Source: Panorpa germanica
Lineage: Eukaryota > Arthropoda > Insecta > Mecoptera > Panorpidae
DNA length: 64,000 nt
NCBI GenBank assembly: GCA_963678705.1
Contig: OY783221.1
Span: forward strand, 7,936,001-8,000,000
Reading direction: 5' to 3'
Shown: positions 23,001 to 51,454 of the stretch, one piece after another
How positions within the stretch are numbered: the stretch's first letter is position 1
Layout: each line of letters opens with the position of its first letter
Position numbers and translations under genes: made by a program
The notes under the pieces: model-generated
The model's database searches: none
What the model saw: only the letters and a program-made list of their open reading frames with translations
What the model was told of the DNA's origin: nothing

Positions 23001-23640
23001 TATTTATTTCTCATTTCATTTTCTAAGTTACCAAATATTAAAAATCTATTTCAATTCAGTACTTTATTGTATACATTGCAATTTACAATTAAAATCCTAA
23101 AGAAAATCCCAATCAATAAATTTGGAAATTGAGATGAAAGTGAAATTACCTTCACATGAAATTTTGAATATAATCAAAAAATTTAACTTCAATTTTAGAG
23201 ATCAAGATTTCATTAACAAAAGCCAGTTAAAAGGAAAAGATTATTATATTTCATTCAAATTTAAGTAAAAAAACATGGTTTAGAAATGAGTAACGCAAAA
23301 TTATATCAACTATAATCAGAATCAAAAGTAATCATTGCAAAACTCCAACTCACCTGTACAAAATTAATATTAAATCCGACGATAGATGTCAATTAACTCA
23401 TCATATTATATTTGAATGCATAAATTATAGTTTAGAATCAAAATTTAATAGTGAAATATTAGATGTGATTAAAACTTTTCTTGTTAATACTAAATTTTTG
23501 TTAAGTGATTCAAAATTAATTAGTGAATTATTTAAATATTTAGAAATTTGTAAAATAGAATTATAAAATGTTAAATATGTAAAAAAAATGTTAGATGGTG
23601 GCTATGACAAATAAATGTCAAGGCAAATAAATTAAAAAAA
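23000..23640 (+). pseudogene. LINE family 2: C-terminal relic with 3' UTR and A-rich tail
   Basis: The plus-strand pieces read KLPSHEILNIIKKFNFNFRD, later KSDDRCQ, HIIFECINYS, then SEILDVIKTFLVNTKFLLSD and ISELFKYLEICKIEL before a stop. They match the open 121-aa tail at 54904-55269. Relative to that copy, the zinc-knuckle-like stretch has lost CGEEGTLD, and stops interrupt the upstream part. The 3' UTR runs through GGTGGCTATGACAAATAAAT to an A-rich tail. It is a dead, 5'-truncated insertion. Confidence 0.68.
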
Positions 23641-30109: not shown

Positions 30110-31680
30110 TATCAGAATTTTATTAAATTTCGGTAAATAATAAAATGTAACTTTATCTAAAAAATATTACGTTAAACAATAACGTATGAAAATAAATTAA
30201 ATATAAATTGTTATTTTAAATGTTTAAGCCACAGAAAGTTTATTCTAATCCTTAAAATTGACTCGTGTATCATCCTTACATACTCAGAATACTTATCCCA
30301 ATTATTTTATTTAAACAGCAGCCATTTAAAAATCTAAATCCAAAAAATTAGGTTAATTGGTTACCTTTGTTAATGAAGCAAGTTGCTTGTATTAATAGCA
30401 ACCCCTTCCACTCAATTAACTAATAAAACTTAATTTTAAAGGGTAGATTTTGTTTTTGAACTTTTTTTTTATATACTCTGTACTTAAAGGTTTAATAAAT
30501 ATATAATACAAAGGTTAATTGCTAGAGAGAAATAGTCATCTACTCCTATTTTTTTTGTTTCATTTAACGCATTAAATTATATATCAAAAAGAAAGAGATA
30601 GCTTTAAAATTTCTTTAAATTTTATAACTCTTTCAGTTTCATATAATTGAAGGGTACTTTTGTTAGGGTTAAAAAACGAAATAAAATTTATTTTTAAAAG
30701 TAAAAAACCTTTTAACTTAAGTCTATAAATATACGAAAAAGAAAAATAACCGAGGAAAGGTGTGAAAAACACTTGGGTATAATAATGACCATCCACATAC
30801 TCTTACTGCCTTAGTTTCACTGCAGCGCGTCTTGTTTCTTACTTCAGAGTAGTTCTAATTGTATTTTGGATGCCGTCAGAGGCACTTACTGTAGACCTAC
30901 AGCAGCGCTCGCTCGGTAATAGGAATAAACTGTATGTAGTGGTGGGGGTATCACGTGACTACGAACCGCAGCGATCAATATAAACCTTATAGATTCTATC
31001 TCTATCTTACAAAAGTATTTATGTATTACGATGTCTCTTTCTAACTGAAAAATAGTAAAGAGTTATATAGAATATAGGGTTAAAATTGTCTGGGGGTGAA
31101 TATTCAGGATATGTACTATATAGTCATATGGAATTTGACTGGTGGGGGAAGAAGGGGTAGCGGTCAACTTTATGCGGTAATCAGCTGATTTAAATTAACT
31201 TCAGATGTTTTGCGACCCGCTGTAATTTTGTTTTAGTAGGTTAAAATTATGATTTAAGTACGAGTATATGAAAATAAAGATAAATTACACTTAATTAACT
31301 GGTTGATTTATCTGAATATAAGTACGTAATTTGGTTTGTTTGGTTTTTAATATAATTTCGGGAGATTCTTTATGAATTAAATTAGGGAGTAGTTTAAATA
31401 TCATTTAATAGGATTTTGAAAGACAATTTGTTACAGAGATCATTAGGGTACAATGCTTTGAACTTTGTTGTAACTTTCTGATTACTGTTTATATTATACC
31501 AAAAATTACCTCAACATTTTTACTATAGGTTTGATCACTATAGGTATCACTTATAAAATATACACAAATTTTTTACTTTTTTATTTAACTATATTTTTAG
31601 TAAACATACTTAATCATATTTTGCAAATATATTTAGTACATATTTATATACTAATTTTTTTGTAAAGAAAACGATGTGTA
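30110..31680. other. AT-rich stretch with a less AT-rich centre, no gene seen
   Basis: The patch at about 30810-30975 (CACTGCAGCGCGTCTTG, CAGCAGCGCTCGCTCGGTAA, GGTATCACGTGACTAC) is markedly richer in GC and contains the E-box CACGTG. It could be an intronic enhancer or promoter. This is inference only. Confidence 0.35.
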
Positions 31681-31685
31681 TAATT

Positions 31686-31720
31686 TTAATTTGTTTTTCT
31701 TTTTGTTTTAGGTAAGTGAA
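31686..31720 (+). promoter_or_regulatory. Candidate recursive splice site 1 (acceptor fused to donor)
   Basis: A pyrimidine tract (31691-31709, 17 of 19 pyrimidines) ends in TTTTAG at 31711 and is followed at once by GTAAGTG (31712-31718), a full-consensus donor. This head-to-tail acceptor|donor is the ratchet point known from very long insect introns, where an intron is removed in steps with no exon in between. Orientation is plus. An A-containing sequence suitable for branching (TATAATTTTAAT) lies just upstream. A second donor-like GTAAGC at 31739 would define a 27-nt exon if the first donor is not used. Confidence 0.5.
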
Positions 31721-31739
31721 ATTCCCCTTCAACAATACG

Positions 31740-32101
31740 TAAGCATCCTGTAATGAAAATGAGAGTACGGCTAGAATATTCTACTATCATGATCAATAAC
31801 AAGGTAGTATTTATTATTTAACCATTAAGGATCGTTCATTTATTGTTTTAGAGTCCTCACAAAATCATGGAAAGGCCTACACGCTTTCTTTTTCATAAAA
31901 AATGTAAATTAAAAATATACTTTGTTCAAAAGTTAATAATAGAATTATTGTCTTAGTGTCTTACCAACGTTAAATTTTAGTTAAATCTAATTCAGAAGCA
32001 CTTAGAGATAAGACTGTCTTTAGACAGATTGAGACAACATAATACAAATTAAAAAAACGGAGACAATTAGCAACTTTATCTAAATATAGTTTTGTTAAAG
32101 C
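31740..32101. other. AT-rich stretch, no gene seen
   Basis: Sequence between the candidate splice site and the next repeat. Nothing recognisable. Confidence 0.4.
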
Positions 32102-50117: not shown

Positions 50118-50146
50118 TATTTTTCTTTCTTTTTCAGGTAAGCTAT
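50118..50146 (+). promoter_or_regulatory. Candidate recursive splice site 2 (acceptor fused to donor)
   Basis: Sixteen consecutive pyrimidines (50120-50135) run into CAG (50135-50137) and directly into GTAAGCT (50138-50144). This is the same acceptor|donor arrangement as at 31711|31712, on the same strand and 18.4 kb downstream. If the fused donor is not used, the next donor-like GTAATA at 50196 would define a 58-nt exon, which contains an in-frame TAG in the frame starting at its first base. Confidence 0.48.
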
Positions 50147-50199
50147 GCTGGAAATGTCATTATCTTCAAGACTAATGCGCTATACTACTAGTCTGGTAA

Positions 50200-51454
50200 T
50201 ACTTTTATTTATTAATACATTTTTCTTACGAGTATAACATAGATGGATATCACATAGATGGCGCCACTACTGATTGATTGATTATGATTATTTGATAGTA
50301 TTAACTATCAAAAGATCTGTGCCAAAATTTCATAACATTTCGACTATTACTTTACGAGGTACAATTGTTTTAGTGACGCTACTTTTAAAAACAAACTACA
50401 AGAACGGTTTTGCAGTAGATTGTCAAAAAACCAAGCTTTTTAATTGTAATAAAGATTCTAGAACATCTAGATGATATTTTTTTTTTAATTTTTCTGCTTC
50501 AACATCATTTTATTTTAAATATTCTAACTTCGATAAAAACCGGTCCATATTAATTGCAATTTGCTTGCGTTTCACTGACGATGACAGTGACTGTTCAGCA
50601 GTAATCCCGGGCTACGATTTATTCAGCCGTACACTGCTCTCGGCACGTTTCTCGGATTATTTGCTCAATTTTCACAATCACATCAAATAAATATATACTC
50701 ACTCGTACATATATTTTTATTTGAACATCGATATTTAAATTTATATATCCGATAAAAAAAAAATTCTGCATTGTTTTAATCTACTTGTTAATACTACATG
50801 GTTTGGTTGCTATGAAACCGCTGTGCTCGTGACAGTTCGTACCAGGGGTTGCGCACCTATTTTCCAGGTGTATACTTCGAAATAAATAATGATAAATACA
50901 TAAGTGCATAGATAGTGTATGGTATATCCACTTTAGAAACAATTGACCACCCCTGTTTAATAGTAATTTGATCCGTAAAACGAGAAAATAAATTATTTCA
51001 GGGATGATAGGAGATTAACAACAAAATATAAAATGATTTGTGTATCAAAACGATTTATGCTTTAGAATTAAAATGGTGTAAATATTGAATTTAATTTATT
51101 AATTATTTATATTTACTTTCATTTAATTAAATAAATGAAATTCGCGTACTTTTGTTATGTTAAAACTTTAATTAATAATTCTATAAATATAATTACTTAT
51201 GTAAATTAAAATGAATATTTATAAAATCCTTTAATGATTCAATTGTACTTAATTTTCAAATTATTTCATGCTAGATTAGAAAAGTATTGTTTAATTGAAT
51301 GTTGATTGTTCAGAATGTAATTAAAACTAAACAATGAAATTGAAGGATACGGTAAGATTTAGTATTGTTGGAGATCTTACTTGTTATTGAATTGTAAATT
51401 GAATATTTAAATACCGACTGTTTTTTGAAAGCTGCTTTAATATAGTATACTAGT
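50200..51454. other. AT-rich stretch with less AT-rich patches, no gene seen
   Basis: The patches at about 50565-50660 and 50805-50875 are richer in GC (for example ATCCCGGGCTACG, ACCAGGGGTTGCGCACC) and could be regulatory. No gene is seen. Confidence 0.35.

Follow-up and report, generated by a model that had tools for sequence, protein, structure and literature searches.

A candidate zero-nucleotide ratchet point in the giant first intron of the Panorpa germanica MAP1B/futsch gene

Site 1, at junction 31711/31712 on the + strand of the 64,000-nucleotide stretch of Panorpa germanica DNA analyzed here (the window), is very probably a zero-nucleotide ratchet point in intron 1 of the MAP1B/futsch gene, an intron that would leave in three steps by a process described chiefly in fruit flies. 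The window corresponds to C18:7936001-8000000, the stroke marks a splice junction in motifs and junction coordinates, and the genome searched comprises 464 Mb in 249 contigs. The reading of site 1 is drawn from the DNA letters and from comparisons within this genome.

The earlier note had supposed that the window lies in a giant plus-strand intron, and this proved correct. ORFs of at least 60 amino acids were read in flanks of 100 kb on each side, and the flanking exons read from the sequence place the whole window (1-64000, +) in the interior of intron 1, which measures 104,689 bp and runs from C18:7926938 to C18:8031626 (phase 1, + strand), starting 9,063 bp before the window and ending 31,626 bp past the window end. 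Exon 1 extends from an ATG at C18:7926763 to 7926937 (..TKG, AAAAG/GTAGGA); exon 2 occupies C18:8031627-8031725 (TTTTCTAG/GTTTTC), its sequence beginning FLSWDVGNCHVDLEEEL... directly behind TTTTCTAG. The reading frame is open when exons 1-3 are joined, later exons start at 8063395, 8068444, 8076788 and ~8077818, and the 3' part of the gene carries a 10.2-kb ORF ending at 8088565. The hand-joined protein matched PF23415 (MAPB1_N, 3.6e-53) and PF25281 (MBL_MAP1B, 7.6e-112), matches that identify the gene, as modeled from its sequence, as a member of the MAP1B family. The insect MAP1B-family gene found here we take to be futsch. Rfam gave no matches at the gathering score in the window, and none of the 10 ORFs compared with Pfam, out of 13 in the window with at least 110 amino acids, had a match above the curated cut-off (best matches below the cut-off, TMEM192 at 0.0058 and zf-RVT at 0.015); therefore, no nested gene was found by that route.

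The pyrimidine tract and fused donor originally claimed for site 1 were borne out by the sequence: 17 of the 19 nucleotides at 31691-31709 are pyrimidines, AG stands at 31710-31711, and GTAAGTG begins at 31712. Across both strands of the 64-kb window, the string NAGGTAAGT is found a single time, on the + strand. The acceptor, consisting of the polypyrimidine tract and AG (31691-31711, +), is preceded by a putative branch-point motif, TTAAT (31686-31690, +), the A of which is at position −23; YTAAY is likewise common at other candidate sites. The ratchet donor GTAAGT (31712-31717, +) would be used after exon 1 has been joined to the site, and both acceptor and donor were assigned by sequence and scoring. 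By frame reading, a possible cryptic RS-exon of 27 nt (31712-31738, +) follows, with the in-frame translation ...LTKGK-stop. Its possible donor, TAC/GTAAGC (31739-31744, +), is early (+27), poor at −1 and weaker than the ratchet donor.

A second site on the same strand had been claimed as well, and we found it at junction 50137/50138 (+, TTTTTCTTTCTTTTTCAG/GTAAGC). Its acceptor, TATTTTTCTTTCTTTTTCAG, occupies 50118-50137 and its ratchet donor, GTAAGC, occupies 50138-50143, both on the + strand and both assigned by sequence and scoring. Measured along the intron, the two sites fall at 38.9% and 56.5%. Site 2 has no YTAAY at −34 to −14 and no GTRAG donor in +20 to +119; CTG/GTAATA at +58 is the sole candidate for the end of a doubtful 58-nt RS-exon (50138-50195, +), which contains an in-frame stop.

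At both sites a strong 3' splice site is fused to a strong 5' splice site, and the two rank at the top of 264 kb scored on both strands, a set of 650 (+) and 691 (−), or 1341, AGGT sites. A combined acceptor and donor score, the weights of which were not fitted, was 16.1 for site 2 and 13.8 for site 1, with the runner-up at 6.5. A second matrix was built from 40 candidate sites elsewhere in the genome, with both futsch sites excluded, and again ranked the futsch pair first and second of the 1341 (34.1 and 28.2, compared with 11.2 for the third); the 40 training sites themselves scored 22.5 to 41.2 in leave-one-out runs. With a matrix built from the 123 non-futsch sites of the genome-wide set described below, site 1 outscored 109 and site 2 outscored 66 of the 123. 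Leave-one-out scores of these 123 ran from 8.8 to 41.6 (median 33.6), and a few of them are therefore poor.

The window is AT-rich, with a GC content of 0.27-0.34 in 4-kb steps, and such DNA could place a T-rich run beside AGGTAAGT that is never spliced. This origin of site 1 by chance is nevertheless very unlikely. When the intron was simulated with Markov models, a site matching or exceeding site 1 turned up in 0 of 150 copies at order 3 and in 1 of 150 at order 5, and two such sites appeared together in 0 of 300.

If site 1 acts as a ratchet point, exon 1 would be joined in step 1 to 31711/31712 with removal of 40.8 kb (40,774 bp). The product, ...ACAAAAG/GTAAGTG (predicted exon 1-31712 junction sequence, ...GATTGACAAAAG/GTAAGTGAAATTCC), would carry a donor stronger than the original ...AAAAG/GTAGGA; with unfitted weights, AAG/GTAAGT scores 7.8 and AAG/GTAAGC 7.5, compared with 4.7 for AAG/GTAGGA of exon 1. 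In step 2, the new donor would be spliced to site 2 at 50137/50138, removing 18.4 kb (18,426 bp) and restoring the donor ...AAAAG/GTAAGC (predicted exon 1-50138 junction sequence, ...GATTGACAAAAG/GTAAGCTATGCTGG). Step 3 would join the site 2 donor to exon 2, removing 45.5 kb (45,489 bp), and the mRNA would retain no base of site 1 or site 2. The sequence at both sites is such that a donor would be regenerated at the exon junction with the reading frame unchanged. Recognition of the site is probably aided by the candidate cryptic exon that follows it; this short exon would then be skipped because the ratchet donor is stronger.

It is quite improbable that site 1 opens an ordinary alternative exon, cassette or poison, which starts with GTAAGT by chance and is kept in the mRNA like Ubx microexons or NMD exons. 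Although the sequence at site 1 allows a 27-nt cryptic exon body, and expression of some RS-exons in the fly is described in part of PMC8605326, the donors of the candidate exons are weaker than the ratchet donor, and GTAAG[TC] stands exactly at the acceptor in both sites of one intron. Retention of the site 1 exon would give ...LTKGK-stop, a stop at the second codon, and retention of the site 2 exon would give a stop at the twelfth, after 11 further residues; this weighs against a coding exon and leaves a poison exon unaffected. A full-length protein therefore requires that neither candidate exon be retained, and neither can be read in frame as an RS microexon of the Ubx type would be.

Site 1, put forward in the earlier note as a candidate recursive splice site, belongs to a statistically real, strand-coherent class of ratchet-like sites, as seen from motif excess, shared strand, branch points and donors. 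Neither futsch site fits the pattern YYYYYYYYYYNYAGGTAAGT, for which the genome gave 97 matches compared with 7 when its donor was scrambled to GTATGA; the reversed pattern had 33 matches, 22 of which are one repeated 20-mer. Another pattern covering both futsch sites, picked after the fact to admit them, gave 59 matches versus 3 for the control, an enrichment that argues against chance as the source of the motif. The merged list contains 125 sites, or 123 without the futsch pair.

Sites that mark the sense strands of giant introns are expected to have their neighbors on a shared strand. Adjacent sites lay on one strand in 27 of 27 pairs within 100 kb and 33 of 33 within 200 kb, and at wider spacing in 34 of 35 pairs within 300 kb and 36 of 41 within 500 kb. 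The 27 pairs observed within 100 kb compare with 3.4 under uniform placement. Matches to the reversed pattern formed no pairs within 100 kb, three pairs within 200 kb (0 on the same strand, 3 on different strands) and six within 300 kb (3 same, 3 different). In a filtered set, from which the 3 dispersed-repeat sites, the 4 paralogous neighbor pairs and the futsch pair were dropped while weaker neighbor similarities were kept, 21 of 21 pairs within 100 kb were on the same strand (p = 5e-7). The strand coherence of neighboring sites thus also speaks against chance.

Branch-point and downstream-donor features, which the search patterns do not select, were counted in 500 nt around each of the 123 non-futsch sites, the 3 dispersed-repeat sites included. 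YTAAY with its A at −34 to −14 was present at 104 of 123 sites, whereas control stretches of the same 123 gave 15 (−134 to −114), 25 (−94 to −74) and 21 (+200 to +220). GTRAG at +20 to +99 was present at 62 of 123, compared with 22 (+100 to +179), 11 (from +180), 10 (from +260) and 4 (from −130) in controls, and GTAAGT in the same interval at 32 of 123 compared with 5, 4, 2 and 0. Both features had first been noticed on the initial 40 sites, and the 78 isolated, later-fetched sites therefore provide a fair test; here YTAAY was found at 66 of 78 sites (controls 11, 18 and 14) and GTRAG at 34 of 78 (controls 17, 6, 6 and 2). The donor excess was stronger in the 45 clustered sites (GTRAG at 28; controls 5, 5, 4 and 2) than in the isolated ones. 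For the first 42 sites, the GTRAG count, made after the aligned paralogous pairs had been seen, was 25 (controls 5, 4, 4 and 2; antisense 6), and full donor weights (score of at least 6, +15 to +99) placed a strong downstream donor in just 4 of the 42. The enrichment of branch points, obtained without selection by the patterns, again argues against chance, and the excess of downstream donors fits the cryptic RS-exon model of Joseph and colleagues as presented in part of PMC8605326. From strand coherence, branch points and donors we infer a giant-intron setting for the other 123 sites, a setting read directly only for futsch.

That the motif stems from a dispersed repeat carrying splice-like ends is barely credible. 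Three of the 125 genome-wide sites do share 400-520 nt of repeat, and a short repeat begins ~100 nt downstream of site 2, but the latter starts at ~50235, outside the site, and the 501-nt flank of site 1 (31500-32000) matched itself alone in a genome search that skips very common words. The repeat with the RP-like motif is present in 3 copies at C2:25274696, C2:22205700 and C8:16178234, with 78-84% identity. The short dispersed repeat near site 2 spans 50235-50386 of the window, looks MITE-like on reading and has at least 40 other genomic matches, scored among 1541 candidates.

Other repeated or coding sequences were seen on C18. The motif TTAATATTAATTTTxxxCAG/GTGAG recurs at window position 23355 (−) and at C18:8051649 (+), 7913686 (−) and 7908972 (−), and some of its copies lie in or beside ORFs resembling a LINE-like 3' tail (KINIKSDDRCQCGEEGTLDHIIFECINYS). 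At C18:7892153-7896818, a + strand ORF of 429 amino acids, presumably Cbp80-like and so named by reading alone, is followed within ~740 bp by an 881-amino acid ORF on the − strand.

Ratchet-like sites were also compared with other loci. No site of the strict pattern was found near Tet, a gene that is recursively spliced in the fly, or near the Meis-N gene on C4, which we take to be hth-like. The absence of sites there counts against the ratchet reading of site 1, as do the early and poor cryptic donor of site 1, the missing YTAAY and GTRAG motifs of site 2, predicted segments longer than those of flies, and the weaker donor excess of the isolated sites. A lone ratchet-like site at C13:2497789 (−) lies ~132 kb upstream, on the same strand, of a Meis/PKNOX N-terminal match at C13:2365187 (−). 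Homeobox genes were considered as site hosts and set aside, as a comparison by eye of 100 matches, from 150 of 155 candidates scored, revealed no cluster of sites clearly in front of any of them. In the same comparison, a Hox-like run on C21 contained no ratchet-like sites. Nine homeobox matches above 75 bits make up this run, which stays on the + strand throughout its 2.2 Mb (C21:5106693-7270343) and is possibly a very spread-out Hox cluster; C21 is a 48-Mb contig, larger than the others with lengths seen.

Four pairs of ratchet-like sites look paralogous: C6:3618139 and 3688060, C4:14781429 and 14827352, C4:6403408 and 6423031, and C17:6151655 and 6180014. In these pairs the homology is a single block of 123-240 nt around the AG/GTAAGT junction with 77-84% identity, and at E 1e-4 a comparison of the four pairs at 3 kb matched nothing further out to 1.5 kb from the junction. 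Mean identity between paralogous copies was 0.74 at −60 to −30, 0.92 at −30 to 0, 0.88 at 0 to +30, 0.82 at +30 to +60, 0.69 at +60 to +100 and 0.59 at +100 to +150, compared with 0.57, 0.77, 0.64, 0.56, 0.58 and 0.56 in the same bins when these loci were combined in 24 non-paralogous ways; outside −60 to +150, the paralogous and non-paralogous values were equal within 0.01. In three of the four pairs, each copy has a cryptic GTAAGT donor at +42 to +55. The 500-nt flanks contained more such pairs, one of them between contigs (C20:5473393 and C6:7346220, 82% over 165 nt). A query of 261 nt taken from one block found two genomic places, itself included, and a second block found two matches and a short match to another site, indicating that these two blocks are not a large repeat family.

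The paralogous blocks may have arisen either as modules duplicated within one intron or through equivalent introns of duplicated genes. A more speculative reading, less likely than not, is that ratchet points in this genome are self-contained modules of ~160 nt that are copied, often locally, and kept by selection while their surroundings diverge until no longer recognizable. The proposed module would contain the branch point, tract, AG/GTAAGT, RS-exon and RS-exon donor. A literature search combining recursive splicing, ratchet point and duplication found 0 papers.

Zero-nucleotide ratchet points of Drosophila are treated in Pai 2018 (PMC6110457) and Joseph 2021 (PMC8605326) and, reportedly, in Burnette 2005 and Duff 2015. 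The sites described here resemble them in several respects: acceptor and donor are fused at AG/GT, the host is a very long first intron with the sites on its sense strand, an intron has multiple sites, a possible cryptic exon with a weaker donor lies downstream, and its inclusion would break the protein. The predicted segments here are 18-45 kb long, whereas segments of 9-15 kb are typical of flies according to part of PMC6110457, which also states that where a fly intron has two or three sites, the first is usually found ~33% or 25% of the way in, compared with 38.9% for site 1. The main text of PMC6110457 contains 0 mentions of futsch, and no recursive futsch intron appeared among the papers listed on recursive splicing with futsch or with insects. 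Vertebrate RS-exon splicing (Sibley 2015, as related in part of PMC8605326) resembles the route proposed here in that an exon is defined through a downstream donor and the donors then compete. Mammals have few fully suppressed intronic ratchet points and many expressed RS-exons, according to the same part of PMC8605326, whereas the form proposed here is the fly-like zero-nucleotide one.

For mosquito, bee, beetle and sea urchin, Shepard 2009 (in a section of PMC2773006) reported that large introns have an excess of RP sites; for the bee, a passage of PMC8553928 notes one exon that is not a substrate of recursive splicing. The 2009 study resembles the present one in being computational and in finding a sense-strand excess of RP sites in introns above 50 kb of non-drosophilid invertebrates, insects included. 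Its section gives site counts, whereas the present analysis names an intron and describes the strand coherence of neighboring sites, unselected branch points, donors downstream and conserved blocks in paralogous sites. Because the excess has been known since 2009, recursive splicing in another invertebrate is expected and not surprising. Recursive splicing is a known phenomenon, to which the futsch intron 1 site would be an added member that is well supported by its sequence.

The futsch intron, which belongs to a conserved neuronal gene, offers a testable single-gene case beyond Drosophila, with three predicted steps and exact predicted junctions. The genome-wide set indicates that, without RNA, one genome alone can yield ratchet points through the strand coherence of neighbors and through branch points that the patterns did not select. 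Comparison of the paralogous blocks could map the constrained parts of a ratchet point without a second species. If ratchet points are indeed copied as modules, the body of the RS-exon would be under constraint, and expanding giant introns would gain stepping stones through whole-module duplication.
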